DNA of 64,000 nucleotides from a virus. The notes under the pieces were generated by a model. The model ran no database searches. It was not told the DNA's origin and saw only the letters and a list, made by a program, of their open reading frames with translations. Below, piece by piece: positions 23,032-52,727 of this stretch. The stretch covers positions 28,604 to 92,603 of the IMG/VR virus record IMGVR_UViG_3300033141_004852, one strand, 5' to 3'. How positions within the stretch are numbered: position 1 is the first letter of the stretch; the number at the start of each line of letters is the position of its first letter. The translations under genes were made by a program, and so were the position numbers.

Positions 23032-23060
23032 TTGACAGTTACGGCGATATATGGTATATA
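23032..23060 (+). promoter_or_regulatory. First rightward promoter
   Basis: TTGACA, 17 bases, TATATA with ATGG directly before the -10 (extended -10). Preceded by ACAATTCCCTG, as at 25418. Drives the gene at 23092, whose ribosome site AGGAGG follows 15 bases later. Confidence 0.9.
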
Positions 23061-24113: not shown

Positions 24114-24176
24114 GCGCGCGGGTGTCCCCGCGCGCTCTTCCCTCTCTGCCTCCGGGAGGGGACAGAGAGGGAAGAG
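24114..24176 (+). terminator. Double hairpin after gene
   Basis: GCGCGCGGG/CCCGCGCGC (24114-24122, 24127-24135) followed by a perfect 14-base stem CTCTTCCCTCTCTG/CAGAGAGGGAAGAG (24135-24148, 24163-24176). No T-run, so termination is not certain; may protect mRNA ends. Confidence 0.55.
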
Positions 24177-24184
24177 GTAGCACC

Positions 24185-24212
24185 TTGACAACGGAATACG
24201 CGCCTCTACTCT
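24185..24212 (+). promoter_or_regulatory. Weak promoter candidate
   Basis: TTGACA, 16 bases, TACTCT. The -35 is perfect but the -10 is poor and the TGGTATA context of the other promoters is missing. It would transcribe the pseudoknot at 24228 as a leader. Confidence 0.3.
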
Positions 24213-24227
24213 ACCTCCGGGAGGGGA

Positions 24228-24311
24228 GGGACTAGGATCACCAATCCCCTCCTCTCCTGCTAGGGAATTAGCGATCCTAGTCCCCTAGCAGGAGGGCGCG
24301 ACGCGCCCTCC
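24228..24311 (+). ncRNA. Pseudoknot-type structured leader
   Basis: Two perfect interleaved inverted repeats: GGGACTAGGATC (24228-24239) with GATCCTAGTCCC (24273-24284), and TCCTGCTAGGG (24255-24265) with CCCTAGCAGGA (24283-24293), order A-B-A'-B'. A third perfect stem GGAGGGCGCG/CGCGCCCTCC (24291-24311) overlaps B'. It precedes the gene at 24340. The topology is either a pseudoknot or a switch between exclusive hairpins. Confidence 0.55.
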
Positions 24312-24339
24312 CGAATCTAATCTACGGAGGTAGAGGCAG

Positions 24340-24900
24340 ATGGTAGCAGGACAGCAACAGATAGTGGGTATGGACGTCCCGGCCCGGAACCTGCTGGACT
24401 TGGACGCGGACGCCGTGCGCGAGGAACTGAATCGCGCGCAGATGGTGCTGGAGGACGGAAACATTATCCAATCCGTGTACCTCGGCCAATGTTGGGTGTT
24501 GTGTCCCGACGAGGCCGAACTGCGCGAACTGTTCCCTGCCAACGCCGACGCGACACGCGGTGAACTCGAAGATTATTGGTGGCAGGAGGCGGAGGCGTGG
24601 ATCACGGAGAACATGCCAGGAGTGTTCCTGCAGCAGGAGGCGGGAGAAACATACCTCCAGCAGGTGGCCCAGGAACTCCACGAATGCTTGCAGGTAGACG
24701 AATGCCAAGGAACCCTCTCCTATGGCGGCCGCGTGGTATACCGTCTACCAGATGCCGCGCGGGAACACGTGGAGTGTGTGTTTGATGCCCTCCTGCGCGC
24801 CGCGACCAGGTGGTGTAGACGCAAAGGGTTTTGGCCATGGGTTGTGTCCGTAAATCCCTCCGGCGAAGTGTTCACGCACATCCCGCCCGTCAACGCGTAG
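24340..24900 (+). CDS. Hypothetical protein
   Basis: 186 residues, GGAGG upstream. Acidic, helical N-terminal two thirds (Trp/Glu-rich WWQEAEAWITENMP), then a small beta segment with GRVVYRLP and WPWVVSVNPSGEVF. Not recognised; expression probably governed by the structured leader. Confidence 0.7.
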   Translation: MVAGQQQIVGMDVPARNLLDLDADAVREELNRAQMVLEDGNIIQSVYLGQCWVLCPDEAELRELFPANADATRGELEDYWWQEAEAWITENMPGVFLQQEAGETYLQQVAQELHECLQVDECQGTLSYGGRVVYRLPDAAREHVECVFDALLRAATRWCRRKGFWPWVVSVNPSGEVFTHIPPVNA

Positions 24901-25208
24901 AGGATCGGGCCGGCAACCTTGCCGGCCCCTCCCGGAAGGTGATCGCCACCAATCACCTTCCGGGAGGGATAGAGTAGAGGTGTAGATTCACACATTCGCA
25001 GGTGATCCGCTGATCCTGCGAAGTGTCTAAATTGTCCTGCCCGCGCGCCTTGCCGCGAAGCAAGCAAGTGCTAGGTTGGTATGATCGCAGAAGCAGGCAA
25101 GCACCTGGCCCCCTGGACACCTGCGGCAGGAGGCCGGGGGAGGTCGCGGGCAGGGGAGGTAACAGGGAGGTAACAGCACCTCGCGTAACACAACAGGAGG
25201 CCAGGTAA
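24901..25208 (+). other. Structured intergenic stretch
   Basis: Two adjoining perfect hairpins (GGGCCGGCAA/TTGCCGGCCC at 24907-24928; a 16-base stem at 24928-24943/24952-24967) and a third, TTCGCAGG/CCTGCGAA (24995-25022). A frame at 25023-25208 has no usual start and reads low-complexity, so is not called. GGTTGGTATGAT near 25075 resembles an extended -10 but lacks a -35. Confidence 0.5.
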
Positions 25209-28252: not shown

Positions 28253-28675
28253 ATGCGAATGATCTTCGCCCTCCAATACGCCGAGGGCTACCCGACGGCA
28301 TACCACGTTCCCGCGGAACGGTGGCAGGAGGCGTCCCGCCATACTCGCTACCCCGACGCGCTGATAGCGCAGAGGAAGCACAACCTGCGAACCGGGGGTA
28401 AATGTGTCTACCGCGTAGTGCCCCTCCGGGATACCTTCGCGACGTTTACCTTCCTCTGCCAGGGGGCGCGGGCAACGGACTATCGCTGCCCACACAACGC
28501 TCACGAGCGTGTAACAGTCCCCTGGCCCGCGGGGACACCGTACCCCCTACGTCCAACCCTACCAAGGTGGGCCGCCAGCAACCTCTGCATGGCATGCGCC
28601 AACGCGGCAGAGGTCGCCGACACACACAAGAAAGGTGAGGAAGAACATGCTCTTGACCGCAGAACTTTGGTATGA
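28253..28675 (+). CDS. Hypothetical protein with cysteine pairs
   Basis: 140 residues. Alpha/beta N-terminus (MIFALQYAEGYPTAYHVPAERW), then CQGARATDYRCPHNAHERV and LCMACANAAEV, a possible split zinc site. Unknown. Confidence 0.6.
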   Translation: MRMIFALQYAEGYPTAYHVPAERWQEASRHTRYPDALIAQRKHNLRTGGKCVYRVVPLRDTFATFTFLCQGARATDYRCPHNAHERVTVPWPAGTPYPLRPTLPRWAASNLCMACANAAEVADTHKKGEEEHALDRRTLV

Positions 28676-31561: not shown

Positions 31562-31890
31562 CCGATCCCCCGCCCACCCCTGGGGGAATCGGTAGCGAAG
31601 GGAGGCGGAGACAATGTAATACTGATCCCCGATAATCGCGTGCTAATAGGTTGAACGGGGAGGGTTCCCCCGGTCGGGGGGACTCTCCCCCAAGGAAGCG
31701 GGAGCACCGTATCCTTGGGGGAGGGGCTAGAGAAACCTTGACAACCTGGCAGGGTGAGTAACTTGTCCCCACGGGGGCACGGGAGGCATTCCTACCTCCG
31801 GGGACACCCTCGCGGTGCGGGGGTGTCCCTCCCTCCCGTGACGGTCCACGGGGATCGCCACGGGAGGGCAAACTACTAGGAGGTAGTATC
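31562..31890 (+). ncRNA. Highly structured non-coding stretch
   Basis: No gene in 329 bases. Several perfect or near-perfect stems: CCGATcCCCC/GGGGGaATCGG just after the stop, GTTCCCCC/GGGGGGAC near 31672-31691, CTCCCCCAAGGA/TCCTTGGGGGAG near 31684-31722, and GGGGACACCC/GGGGTGTCCC near 31800-31830 nested in GGGAGG/CCTCCC. It could end the upstream unit and act as a leader for the gene at 31891, or be an RNA itself. Confidence 0.45.
31738..31764 (+). promoter_or_regulatory. Weak promoter candidate
   Basis: TTGACA followed after 15 bases by TAACTT; spacing short and no TGGTATA context. Confidence 0.3.
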
Positions 31891-32100
31891 ATGTACCGAG
31901 TGACGTTGGAGTCCGAAGAATATGGGGTAGAGGAGTTTCGCTACCCCACGCTAAGGGATGCGCGGGAAGCAGTAGCCCGCCTCAGTGAGGAATGTGTAAA
32001 TGCTCACAAGCGGGACGGGGTAGAACGTAGGATTGTCCTGCATATCCCCGCACGAAGTGCCGACCCCGCCGCCGCCAAAGAGGAGGCGGAATCATGCTGA
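31891..32100 (+). CDS. Small hypothetical protein
   Basis: 69 residues, AGGAGGTAG upstream. YRVTLESEEYGVEEFRYPTLRDAREAVARL is one strand-strand-helix unit. Unknown. Confidence 0.65.
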   Translation: MYRVTLESEEYGVEEFRYPTLRDAREAVARLSEECVNAHKRDGVERRIVLHIPARSADPAAAKEEAESC

Positions 32101-35830: not shown

Positions 35831-36016
35831 ATGCTGGTCACGGAAGTCATGGTCTGTGCTATCTGCGGAGCACAAACAGACGGGCAGGGACCAACCTGCC
35901 CACACTGTAACCGCAACGTCTGCCCTAACTGCTTCGCTATCCCACCGGGCACCGAAGACGAAGATGATCCCGGCGTTTGCCGCGACTGCTTCCGCGGCTC
36001 CACGCAGAATAAGTAA
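35831..36016 (+). CDS. Zinc cross-brace mini-protein
   Basis: 61 residues from ATG 35831 (AGGAGG upstream). CAICGAQ...CPHCNRNVCPNCF...CRDCF, eight cysteines in the same spacing as the proteins at 33798 and 34478. Confidence 0.65.
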   Translation: MLVTEVMVCAICGAQTDGQGPTCPHCNRNVCPNCFAIPPGTEDEDDPGVCRDCFRGSTQNK

Positions 36017-36044
36017 CAAAACACACCACAAGATGTATATAAAG

Positions 36045-36170
36045 AGTGAGAGTCCGGGTTACCAAGGTGCTACCTCCAATGGATCATCCCGGACAAGTGA
36101 GGCCGGCTCTCGGTTTTCACCACGAGGCCCTTCGATCATAACCGGAGCCGGCCCCTCTCACTAGAGAGGG
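36045..36170 (+). ncRNA. Three-way-junction leader RNA with alternative hairpin over the ribosome site
   Basis: P1: AGTGAGAG (36045-36052) with CTCTCACT (36155-36162). P2: TCCGGG/CCCGGA (36053-36058, 36088-36093). P3: GGCCGGCTC-T-CGGTT (36101-36115) with AACCG-GAGCCGGCC (36140-36153). All perfect apart from one bulge. The P1 3' strand is also the left arm of CCCTCTC-ACTA-GAGAGGG (36153-36170), whose right arm is the purine-rich ribosome site seven bases before ATG 36178. P1 and the masking hairpin exclude each other, as in translational riboswitches. P2 and P3 loops both end in GATCAT. Matches no riboswitch class I know. Confidence 0.65.
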
Positions 36171-36177
36171 TAAGCCC

Positions 36178-36705
36178 ATGAAGACAGAGATACGCCGCAT
36201 TCACAGTAGTCACATCGCTGACTACGCCGCCTTCCTGGCGATCTGCCTACGCGACAGGGTATTCGTAGGCAGAACCTGCCTCCGCACTCTCCTGCCAATG
36301 CAAGTGCAGACACTCCTGAGTCACCTCTTCTCCGCAGACGCCCAATACTACCTCGTCTTGACCGGACGGGCACGCGGGCGCTACCCTACAGCATTCCTCA
36401 TCCTAGACCCCCAGCCGTGGGATACCGTGCAAATCTACTACTTCTCCCACCCGCGGCGGCGCCGCCAAACATTCTGGAGCGACCTCTGGCCACAGGTAAC
36501 AGCGGCCGCCGTCGAAATGGGCGCCTTCCGCCTGGAGATCGAAGTCAGTAGTGCCCACGAGAGTTTCCTGGAGGCGCTGAAAGCACGCCAATCGGAGACG
36601 GGCCTCCGCCTGGAGGGAATCCGACGCCTTGCCGTCCTCGATGCAGACGGTAACCGTCGCGACCTCTACCTCTTCGGGAAAGTCCTCGGAGATCACGGAG
36701 GGTAA
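36178..36705 (+). CDS. GNAT acetyltransferase-like protein
   Basis: 175 residues. IRRIHSSHIADYAAFL, YYLVLTGRARGRYPTAFLILDP, and FRLEIEVSSAHESFLEALK...YLFGKVL follow the GNAT strand/helix order (N-terminal helix pair, acceptor strands, C-terminal 'a..fyeklGF' block replaced by a degenerate version). The Q/RxxGxG/A loop is not clear, so activity is doubtful. Translation is probably controlled by the RNA element just upstream. Confidence 0.5.
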   Translation: MKTEIRRIHSSHIADYAAFLAICLRDRVFVGRTCLRTLLPMQVQTLLSHLFSADAQYYLVLTGRARGRYPTAFLILDPQPWDTVQIYYFSHPRRRRQTFWSDLWPQVTAAAVEMGAFRLEIEVSSAHESFLEALKARQSETGLRLEGIRRLAVLDADGNRRDLYLFGKVLGDHGG

Positions 36706-36709
36706 CAAC

Positions 36710-37741
36710 ATGTACCCCGAACTCGACCAACTCCTCCTACCGGAGTTTCAAGCGTACATCCGCGCACTCAAAGGGCACCGGAGCCCACAAACTGTGCGGA
36801 TATACCGGAGCCGCCTGCGGTGGCTCTCCCGCAAACTACAGGAGCGGGGGCTGAAGCCGTTGGAGGTAACGGAGGCAGACCTCACGAGACTCCGGGAGGA
36901 TACCTTCGACGAGATCACCCCCTCCATGTGGAATCAAACACTCCACGCGGTAACGCGCTTCTATGAAGAGGCCGTCCGCCGGGGGGAGATCGCCCAATCT
37001 CCACTCATTCCCCGCCTATTCCGGCAAGAAACCCCCAAACCACCCAGGGAGCCTCTGACACAGGAGGTCCTCGATGGGATACTCGCCGCCGCGCGGAAGG
37101 AGGGGATGCCCTGGCCTCTGGTGATCCAGGTCATGGCATTCGCCGGCCTCCGCCGCGACGAAGTATGCCGCCTGCGGCGCCAGCACCTTCTCATCAGTCA
37201 ATATCGGGAAGACCACGAGGACCCAAGCACCGCCTATAGTCTGTGGGTGCTCGGTAAGGGTAACAAAGGCCGCTCGGTGGCAATCCACCGCAGTCTCTAC
37301 GAGGCTATAGAGGCATATCTAGCATGGCGGACACACGAGATGGACGATCACGATGAGCACATGTTCGTCTACTATCACCCCGGCTCGTGGCGAGCAACGG
37401 GGAAACCGCGCCACCCCCGCTCGAAAGCGGAGCCGCACCCCCTGACTGGCGACCTGATCTGGAGACGCGTGCGGGAGTTTGCCCGCGACACCGCGAACCC
37501 GCGGGTAACGCCCCATGATCTCCGTGCCCACTTCGCCACGCGGGCACTCATGCGCGGTGTACCCCCTAGCCTAGTGAAATTGTGGATGGGGCATAGCCAC
37601 GAGCGCACCACGATGGGCTACTTCCGCCCCGCCGGGGATACCATCGCCGCCATTCCCGGCATCATCCTGGCGGATGTAGACCTAGAAAGGTTGGAGAGAG
37701 AATGCAGAGAACTCCTGACTCCTCGCACACACCACGAGTAG
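36710..37741 (+). CDS. Tyrosine recombinase (XerC/D-like integrase)
   Basis: 343 residues from ATG 36710 (GGAGGG upstream). SAM-like N-terminal domain (FQAYIRALKGHRSPQTVRIYRSRLRWL), then the catalytic domain with Arg in AGLRRDEVCRL (near 146), Lys in GKGNKGRS, H-x-x-R in HDLRAHFATRAL (near 270), His/Trp in WMGHSHERTT and the nucleophile Tyr near 303 (MGYF). It could integrate the phage or resolve genome multimers. No attachment site was recognised beside it. Confidence 0.88.
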   Translation: MYPELDQLLLPEFQAYIRALKGHRSPQTVRIYRSRLRWLSRKLQERGLKPLEVTEADLTRLREDTFDEITPSMWNQTLHAVTRFYEEAVRRGEIAQSPLIPRLFRQETPKPPREPLTQEVLDGILAAARKEGMPWPLVIQVMAFAGLRRDEVCRLRRQHLLISQYREDHEDPSTAYSLWVLGKGNKGRSVAIHRSLYEAIEAYLAWRTHEMDDHDEHMFVYYHPGSWRATGKPRHPRSKAEPHPLTGDLIWRRVREFARDTANPRVTPHDLRAHFATRALMRGVPPSLVKLWMGHSHERTTMGYFRPAGDTIAAIPGIILADVDLERLERECRELLTPRTHHE

Positions 37742-40350: not shown

Positions 40351-40805
40351 TGCCCGTCCACCCAACACGACGCCGACCACGAAGCCGCCACCTCGGAGGC
40401 TTTTGGCGCCAAGCATACTCCTGGCGGTGGGATGCCCCACACCCCGTACCGAAGAAGGAACAGCGGTGGTATATCACCGCCCACGCGGCACTGAAAGTCC
40501 TCCGCGAGCAAGAGGGTATAGACACCACCTGGCTGAGGAACTTCATCACCTGGTACTTCACCTGGTGGACGTTCCACGGCAAGGTAGATGCCGCCTCCAT
40601 GCGCCTCTACAGCGAACACCCGCGGACACTCCTCGCCCGCAGCCAGGACGGCACCTACTTCATCCTCGAAGCCTACAAGGCGTGGACTCAGCAGTACGCG
40701 CACATGCTCGCGCAGGCGTCGATCCCCGAGATCGCCCAGCAGTACCGGACGGTTCCGCACACGACTCACCACCCCGGACCGTGGGAGACAGAAGATGTTG
40801 ACTGA
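40350..40805 (+). CDS. Hypothetical Trp-rich protein
   Basis: 151 residues from ATG 40350 (AAGGAG upstream). Basic N-terminus, then aromatic helices (NFITWYFTWWTFHGK). Unknown; in the replication cluster. Confidence 0.65.
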   Translation: MPVHPTRRRPRSRHLGGFWRQAYSWRWDAPHPVPKKEQRWYITAHAALKVLREQEGIDTTWLRNFITWYFTWWTFHGKVDAASMRLYSEHPRTLLARSQDGTYFILEAYKAWTQQYAHMLAQASIPEIAQQYRTVPHTTHHPGPWETEDVD

Positions 40806-41928
40806 TCAGCAGTGGCAGGCTTTCCTACACTGGTTCAACGGCTACTACTTGGAGGCACTGGCCGACACCTCCCTAGTGGGGGAGGCGCGGATCAGGGAGA
40901 ACCTCCACATCCTCTACCCGCTCTACCAAGCATGGCAACGCTGCCAGCAGTGTCAGGAGGGTAACGGGTGCAACGGGCAGAAGATGGAGTTGGATGTGTC
41001 CGCCTCGCGGTTCTATGGGGAGTACCTGCCGAAGATCACCCCCTGCCCAAACTTCCCCCGCCCACTAGTTGACGTTTTTACTGGTTTACAGGGTACGGGG
41101 TTTTCAACTCCCATGCTCAACAAAGTGGTCCAGAAACTGACAAAAATGTCAAGCGATTCGGACTTGACAAAAATGGAACAAAAAAACGGCTTGACAAAAA
41201 CGGAGCGTTTTTCCGAAATTACAAACGGCTTGACAAAAACGGAAGGACGCGGCCGAAACTGCAAAAACGACGAAATCAGGGGTGAAAAATCAGATCAGGG
41301 ATGGGAAAATACCCCTATTTCACTTATTTTGTCAAGGCTGGAAACAGAGGGAGTGGGGAGGGAATTACTCGTGAATGGGGGACTCGTTGTCTTACCACTG
41401 TCGATTTACGGCGGCAAAGGGGTACAAAATGGGGCTGAAGGGCGAATAGAAAGAATTATATCTCTAGGTAGTAGAGAGAGTATTACTACCACGCGCGCAC
41501 GCGCGCACGCGAGGGCCTACGAGATTCCGATTTTTGGGGATGGTGTAATTCAGGCTTCGGGAGTGAGTGCCCACGAACTCGGTCATTGGTTGGGGGTGTT
41601 CCTCGCTCTCCACGGAGTGGCCGCGGGGTTCCTCGATGCTCTCGGGATGCACGCCGCCGGTGACTGGGGGGACTCCCCCCTCGCGCAGTTTCTCCAATAC
41701 AGCGAGGAGGTGGGCGCCCTCGTGGTAACGAACTACGATCACCTGCCCCCCGGGAGGCAGTCGACATCCCTGGTGTTGGCGGCGCTCTCGCGTTTCCTCT
41801 CCGAAGATGGAATACTGTGGGTGGTGATCTCGCAGCCGCCGGAGCAGATGCAGGTGCGAGATCCCCTGGAAACCCCCGTTTGGAGTGAGATCCTGGAACT
41901 GCCACGATACGAGGTAGTCAACCCATGA
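40795..41928 (+). CDS. Putative replication initiator/helicase loader with internal iterons
   Basis: 377 residues from ATG 40795 (overlapping the previous gene). Helical N-terminal domain with CQQCQEGNGC; a central segment (about 110-230) that is AT-richer and repeats LTK-[MT]-E units; and a C-terminal ATPase-like domain, HELGHWLGVFLALHGV...GALVVTNYDHL...DGILWVVISQ, resembling the Walker B half of DnaC/DnaA-type loaders without a P-loop. Directly upstream of the DnaB-like helicase. The arrangement recalls lambda O, whose gene contains the origin. Function inferred. Confidence 0.55.
   Translation: MLTDQQWQAFLHWFNGYYLEALADTSLVGEARIRENLHILYPLYQAWQRCQQCQEGNGCNGQKMELDVSASRFYGEYLPKITPCPNFPRPLVDVFTGLQGTGFSTPMLNKVVQKLTKMSSDSDLTKMEQKNGLTKTERFSEITNGLTKTEGRGRNCKNDEIRGEKSDQGWENTPISLILSRLETEGVGRELLVNGGLVVLPLSIYGGKGVQNGAEGRIERIISLGSRESITTTRARAHARAYEIPIFGDGVIQASGVSAHELGHWLGVFLALHGVAAGFLDALGMHAAGDWGDSPLAQFLQYSEEVGALVVTNYDHLPPGRQSTSLVLAALSRFLSEDGILWVVISQPPEQMQVRDPLETPVWSEILELPRYEVVNP
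41137..41243 (+). repeat. Iterons, candidate replication origin
   Basis: Four direct copies of CTTGACAAAAAyGGA-like sequence: 41137 (CTGACAAAAATG), 41163, 41190, 41229, spaced 26, 27 and 39 bases, plus an inverted copy ATTTTGTCAAG at 41326-41336. The surrounding 400 bases are clearly AT-richer than the genome. Typical of an iteron origin with an AT-rich unwinding zone. Confidence 0.6.
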
Positions 41929-51984: not shown

Positions 51985-52727
51985 GTACGCCGCCGGAGTT
52001 TCTCCAGGATATAGTCCAGCGTGGAATCACGTATCGGGAAGTCATCCTTACCTTGCCCGAGGCACACGAGGATGGGCAGCGACTCCTCGCTTTCTTCCAC
52101 ACGCGGGGAATCACCTCCGACCAGATTTCCCGCTGGGGGTTGGGAATGCTTCCCCCCGAGTGGGCAGGTGAGCACTGTGCTGCCCTCAACCAACGACTTC
52201 TGATTCCCATCCGGGACGCTCACTACAACCTAGTGAGTGTCAGCGGACGGGCACTTTTCCCCGCCCAGGAACCGAAGTTCTGGCACTTCCCCTTCAACAA
52301 GCGTCATGTACTGTGGGGGTTGGGTCACCTAGCAACGCGCATCGAGGAGATGAACTTCGCCTTCCTCGTCGAGAGTTACTTCGACGTACTTGCACTGGAA
52401 CGATGTGGGTTCCCCGCGGTGGCGTTCATGGGGAGTTCACTCGCGATTGACCAGGCTGCACTGTTGGCGCGATATACCCAGCGGGTCTGTTACATCGCCC
52501 ACCGCGACAAAGCCGACCCCGGGGTTGTTGAGCGTCAAGTCCTCCACCCTCTGCGTAGAATGGGGATGAAGGCGGTGTGGGTGACGGTATCCCACGGGTC
52601 GGACTTCGACGAATACTACCGACTAGGCGGGCACGAGCACGCGGTAGCCAGCGCCCATGAAGCCTTTCGGTTACTCCAACCGCGTGCACCCACCCCGTGG
52701 AAACATCGTGTGAGAAAATATGCCTAA
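51981..52727 (+). CDS. DnaG-type primase core (TOPRIM), metal site altered
   Basis: 248 residues from ATG 51981 (ATGA overlap with recA). LNQRLLIPIRDAHYNLVSVSGRAL...PKFWHFPF matches the DnaG core; FLVESYFDVLALERCGFPAVAFMGSS matches TOPRIM (VEGYFD...), keeping the Glu. The DGD metal motif reads HRD (IAHRDKADPG), so its first Asp is missing. Zinc domain is encoded at 43545. It could still be active, or be a helicase/primer partner. Confidence 0.75.
   Translation: MSTPPEFLQDIVQRGITYREVILTLPEAHEDGQRLLAFFHTRGITSDQISRWGLGMLPPEWAGEHCAALNQRLLIPIRDAHYNLVSVSGRALFPAQEPKFWHFPFNKRHVLWGLGHLATRIEEMNFAFLVESYFDVLALERCGFPAVAFMGSSLAIDQAALLARYTQRVCYIAHRDKADPGVVERQVLHPLRRMGMKAVWVTVSHGSDFDEYYRLGGHEHAVASAHEAFRLLQPRAPTPWKHRVRKYA

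Follow-up and report, generated by a model that had tools for sequence, protein, structure and literature searches.

Translational riboswitches whose three-way junction is closed by a P1 helix are represented by the purine and TPP classes. Like these riboswitches, the leader described here has a P1 strand that doubles in a hairpin masking the ribosome site; unlike them, it has no Rfam match and no conserved core. Riboswitches are known in phages but are rare; for example, the methylophage Melnitz carries a glutamine riboswitch (PMC9004378), which belongs to a recognised class, whereas the present element matches none. According to PMC4166951, the leader of lambda cIII (Altuvia et al. 1989) can take either of two conformations that exclude each other, and in one of them the ribosome site is blocked. 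Judged against that summary, the present leader would work most like that of lambda cIII: in our folding model it also has two exclusive conformations, one of them masking the ribosome site. The two differ in fold. The temperature behaviour that defines lambda cIII in the same account (the masked form at higher temperature) was not reproduced by our model, in which the share of free ribosome site rose or stayed almost flat with temperature.

The element lies in a 64,000-nucleotide stretch of DNA (the window), which corresponds to positions 28604–92603 of a 92,603-base IMG/VR virus record; coordinates below are those of the window. The initial annotation described the element as a riboswitch-like junction that controls the gene at 36178, and the most that the evidence allows is "a structured leader that may control translation."

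Genomic setting and anatomy of the leader

From 32338 to 60952, genes run rightward and mostly overlap or are closely spaced, and this operon encodes a sliding clamp, a tyrosine recombinase, a thymidylate kinase, a ResIII helicase, a DnaB-like helicase, a DNA methyltransferase, a family-A DNA polymerase, and RecA. The gap at 36017–36177 (161 nt) is unsurpassed in size among the 22 tightly packed genes between 32338 and 51984, and in the whole operon it is exceeded only by the poorly resolved stretch at 51985–52719. The codon scores of the frames in this gap were like those of off-frame DNA, so the leader fold does not arise as a side effect of coding, and a coding reading of the gap was rejected on this score. 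Elsewhere in the operon, the ORF at 40795–41928 contains an iteron-like array at 41164–41242, in which TTGACAAAAA(C/T)GG occurs three times against 0.7 expected (at most two mismatches allowed). GATC occurs 320 times across the window (1–64000), compared with approximately 227 expected from base composition.

The product of the gene at 36178 is GNAT-like in its predicted fold. In its structure prediction, although of low confidence (mean pLDDT 46), the elements follow the order seen in GNAT proteins, and each of the 38 PDB matches with E ≤ 0.001 was an acetyltransferase, which bears out the GNAT-like assignment of the initial annotation. Sequence profiles gave no Pfam or PHROG match and one meaningless NCBIfam match. 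The GNAT-like product offers no hint of a ligand. The features of the locus are as follows.

36036–36043, plus strand: TATATAAA, putative promoter -10-like sequence, the only copy in the record
36045–36052, plus strand: P1 5' strand, AGTGAGAG
36052–36094, plus strand: P2 arm, with outer stem GTCCGGG/CCCGGAC, inner hairpin CCA-AGGT/ACCT-TGG, and GATCAT at 36082
36095–36100, plus strand: P2–P3 linker AAGTGA, which together with G36101 repeats the P1 motif AGTGAG (36096–36101)
36101–36153, plus strand: P3 arm of 14 bp with one bulge, inner hairpin CGAG/TTCG, and GATCAT at 36134
36155–36162, plus strand: P1 3' strand, CTCTCACT, overlapping the 5' arm of the mask hairpin
36153–36170, plus strand: mask hairpin CCCTCTC-ACTA-GAGAGGG, covering the ribosome site at 36164–36170
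36178–36705, plus strand: GNAT-like acetyltransferase gene (175 aa), the presumed target

The stems and the mask hairpin are real complementarities. P1 consists of eight perfect pairs (AGTGAGAG/CTCTCACT, 36045–36052 with 36155–36162), although in the minimum-energy fold its innermost base, G36052, is taken by P2. P3 is formed by 36101–36109 with 36145–36153 and by 36111–36115 with 36140–36144, leaving T36110 as the bulge. The lengths first given for P1 (8 bp) and P3 (14 bp with one bulge) were therefore right, whereas the outer stem of P2, given as 6 bp, has 7 bp (36052–36058 with 36088–36094). The linkers of the three-way junction are 0, 6 (36095–36100), and 2 nt long. AGTGAG occurs both in P1 (36045) and in the P2–P3 linker (36096), so that CTCTCACT has a third possible partner; the occupancy of this pairing was near zero in the folding model.

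The P2 and P3 arms are alike in that AGTGAG lies ahead of each and GATCAT lies just before the 3' strand of each stem. Aligned locally, the two units scored 21, whereas shuffles averaged 15.4 (P = 0.055), a marginal likeness that would be compatible with, but no proof of, an old duplication. The initial annotation took the two GATCATs, which are indeed present in both arms, for paired binding sites. This reading is weak, because GATCAT is found at 20 positions on this strand across the window, and by our own estimate the chance of meeting another copy no more than 52 nt away in either direction is about 3%. No other GATCAT hairpin across the record resembled the arms of the element. Since GATC is its own reverse complement, a loop–loop contact of 4 bp between the arms is conceivable.

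Other leaders of this phage are also structured. The leader at 24205–24339, before the ORF at 24340, forms a four-way junction of abutting GC-rich stems in which the ribosome site is itself part of the outer stem, CTCTACCTCC/GGAGGTAGAG; with an MFE of -88.7 (24200–24370) and a ribosome-site pairing of 1.00, it is more extreme than the 36045 element. The leader at 31770–31890, before the ORF at 31891, consists of abutting hairpins with the ribosome site within CTACTAGGAGGTAG, and this site may instead pair with CTACCTCC upstream, a segment that is also able to pair with a GGGAGG lying still farther upstream. Like these two leaders, the 36045 element is non-coding and has abutting stems that end on the ribosome site; unlike the 24340 leader, its ribosome site is not paired by the outer stem itself. 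It has no sequence in common with either leader. Furthermore, paired abutting perfect hairpins with stems of up to 17 bp, perhaps terminators without a T run, flank the unit 24185–24900 at 24114–24176 and 24907–24968.

Competition between P1 and the ribosome-site mask

The mask hairpin pairs 36153–36159 with 36164–36170 (7 bp), and because 36155–36159 are common to P1 and the mask, the two helices cannot coexist. The claim that the P1 3' strand is shared with a 7-bp ribosome-site hairpin thus held, and this sharing is the arrangement expected of the expression platform of a riboswitch, which in a loose form was found at 4 of 99 gene starts (see below). In stepwise folding of the growing transcript, P2 formed, then P3, and then P1 at 36162, whereas the masking CCCTCTC/GAGAGGG pairing was possible only past 36170, after P1. 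The P1 state and the masked state over 36040–36200 differed by approximately 0.2 kcal/mol in ensemble energy, in a model that is limited to secondary structure and takes no account of ribosomes. At 37°C, the modelled occupancy of P1 was 0.43–0.49 and that of the mask 0.50–0.55 in RNAs ending at 36200; P1 was dominant (0.82) in the RNA ending at 36177; and when at least 53 nt of coding region was included, the mask reached at least 0.91 and P1 fell to 0.00–0.08. In the P1 state, GGG at 36168–36170 can still pair weakly with CCC at 36175–36177, which leaves the "on" state less than fully open. In other words, of the proposal that forming P1 frees the site, the mutual exclusion with the mask stood and the full opening did not. 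The minus strand was about as stable as the plus strand, since nearly all pairs are Watson–Crick; such strand-symmetric folding does not mark the plus-strand RNA as the functional form.

The putative -10 sequence TATATAAA at 36036 resembles that of the promoter at 23032 (TTGACA-N17-TATATA), and its best -35 is GTAACA at 36013, which matches at four of six positions. If TATATAAA is used, the RNA would start within the P1 5' strand, and the switch would operate on read-through RNA only; an RNA starting at 36048 had no P1 in the model. Five related promoter-like sites, at 23032, 25418, 27489, 30215, and 32278, have TTGACA followed after 17 nt by a TATA- or TAAC-like hexamer, and most have a AGGAGGTAG ribosome site close behind.

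Relatives, chance, and rival explanations

Rfam searches of the window with gathering and loose thresholds gave nothing above the gathering threshold and two sub-threshold matches on the minus strand (E = 2.1 and 4.3), in agreement with the earlier impression that no known riboswitch class fits. Neither phage and plasmid records nor the 161 loci retrieved via relatives of the DNA polymerase and helicase yielded a homologue of the element, and a single-sequence covariance model run on the whole record and these loci found only the element and its own reverse strand. IMG/VR protein searches with the GNAT, recombinase, clamp, and DNA polymerase sequences gave no homologue, nor did a peptide pattern search with the recombinase give a match. 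Because no homologue of the RNA or the GNAT gene was found, there is no covariation to count. Alignments of the DNA polymerase (24–30% identity; 30% to the best IMG/VR relative and 27% to the best phage record) and of the helicase (24–35%; 28% to the top-ranked relative) yielded distant relatives only, and GTDB genomes gave one distant relative at 29% identity. By these comparisons, the source is an orphan phage genome in which the neighbours of the GNAT-like gene have distant relatives only; no close relative of the phage was found in the searched set, outside which the records nearest to the window's own may fall. A pattern search of IMG/VR for the mask hairpin before an ATG gave two matches of nearly identical DNA, which were discarded as unrelated because they lack the arms and any relative of the neighbouring genes. 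An intrinsic terminator was rejected because no T run follows P3 or the mask hairpin, and a tRNA or tmRNA because ARAGORN made no call.

Against 2000 dinucleotide shuffles, the MFE of the element gave z = -2.9 (P = 0.008), a three-way junction whose branches reach 7 bp or more gave P = 0.0015, and low energy together with junction branches of at least 6 bp gave 0.0005. When the upstream DNA was shuffled and the ribosome site retained, the combination of a ribosome-site hairpin of 7 bp or longer and a competing helix no shorter than 8 bp had P = 0.0035. These tests are not independent, and the region had been picked by eye out of 64 kb. The element stands out less against natural windows of its own genome: a comparable junction occurred in 1.6% of 2776 equal windows, 72 of 6388 windows folded better given their GC content, and 4 of 99 gene starts, some of them of doubtful ORFs, passed a loose mask-plus-competitor test in which G-U pairs were allowed. 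These genome-based figures favour a chance structure in GC-rich intergenic DNA, selected by eye; we regard this as unlikely, because the element occupies the only large gap between closely packed operon genes and its energy and branches are jointly so rare in shuffles.

A more serious rival, arising from the stronger folding of the leaders before 24340 and 31891, is that this phage has a generic habit of hairpin-rich leaders, whose role would be RNA stability, RNase processing, or constant low translation, with the P1/mask overlap being non-regulatory. Those leaders also involve the ribosome site, several intergenic hairpin pairs occur in the 23–32 kb region, and in long RNAs of the 36045 element the mask is simply formed. 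This reading, which we hold to be doubtful but not far-fetched, leaves unexplained why a perfect 8-bp P1 closes both arms almost flush while sharing bases with the mask (P = 0.0035 when the mask is included), and the element has no sequence likeness to the other leaders. The repeats could alternatively act as DNA, for example in an operator or at a place where the tyrosine recombinase encoded at 36710 binds or carries out crossover. The strand symmetry of the Watson–Crick repeats, the recombinase gene 0.5 kb downstream, and the duplicated GATCAT and AGTGAG would fit such a role, but a whole gene separates the element from the recombinase, a simple att core would not usually have several nested arms, and no host or integrated copy is known; a DNA element is accordingly improbable. 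Slightly less probable again is a new class of phage riboswitch, in which the GATCAT arms would bind a ligand or protein dimer, hold P1, and switch on the acetyltransferase, since no homologue, covariation, or known class supports the riboswitch reading first proposed. Least probable of all is a leader frame of 43 codons (ATG 36033 to TAG 36164), on which a ribosome would melt P1–P3, stop in the mask loop, and couple translation of the GNAT gene. This frame exactly spans the element and ends inside the mask hairpin; however, no ribosome site precedes ATG 36033, the codon score equals that of off-frame DNA and lies under all 3000 in-frame samples, and an open frame of 43 codons is often expected by chance.

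A cis-acting structured leader that sets the amount of GNAT-like protein made is the reading that we tentatively prefer, at somewhat less than even chances. It is supported by the gap position, the off-frame codon score, the excess over shuffles, the P1/mask overlap, the near-balance of the two states, and the formation of P1 first; counted against a switch are the lack of a homologue, the masking in long RNAs, the strand symmetry, the 4 of 99 starts, and the marginal arm likeness (P = 0.055).

Proposed mechanism and meaning

In the leader mechanism that we propose, P2, P3, and P1 would form in turn on the nascent RNA, the P1 3' strand being made ahead of the ribosome site. Once 36164–36170 is transcribed, CCCTCTC/GAGAGGG pairing would capture the P1 3' strand and mask the ribosome site. 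If P1 is stabilised, by a protein or ion on the arms or by slow refolding, translation would stay on, and if P1 is lost, translation would be lowered; the direction implied by the anatomy is that P1 is on and its absence off. Transcription through the element, its effect on translation, and any trigger are what we infer from the anatomy, and the likeliest trigger is folding kinetics, an RNA-binding protein, or an RNase rather than a metabolite. At present, the element is one orphan sequence, and its value is that it provides a precise construct for a simple reporter assay. If the proposal is true, a phage-borne translational switch, located in a replication operon and before an acetyltransferase gene, would be added to a short list.
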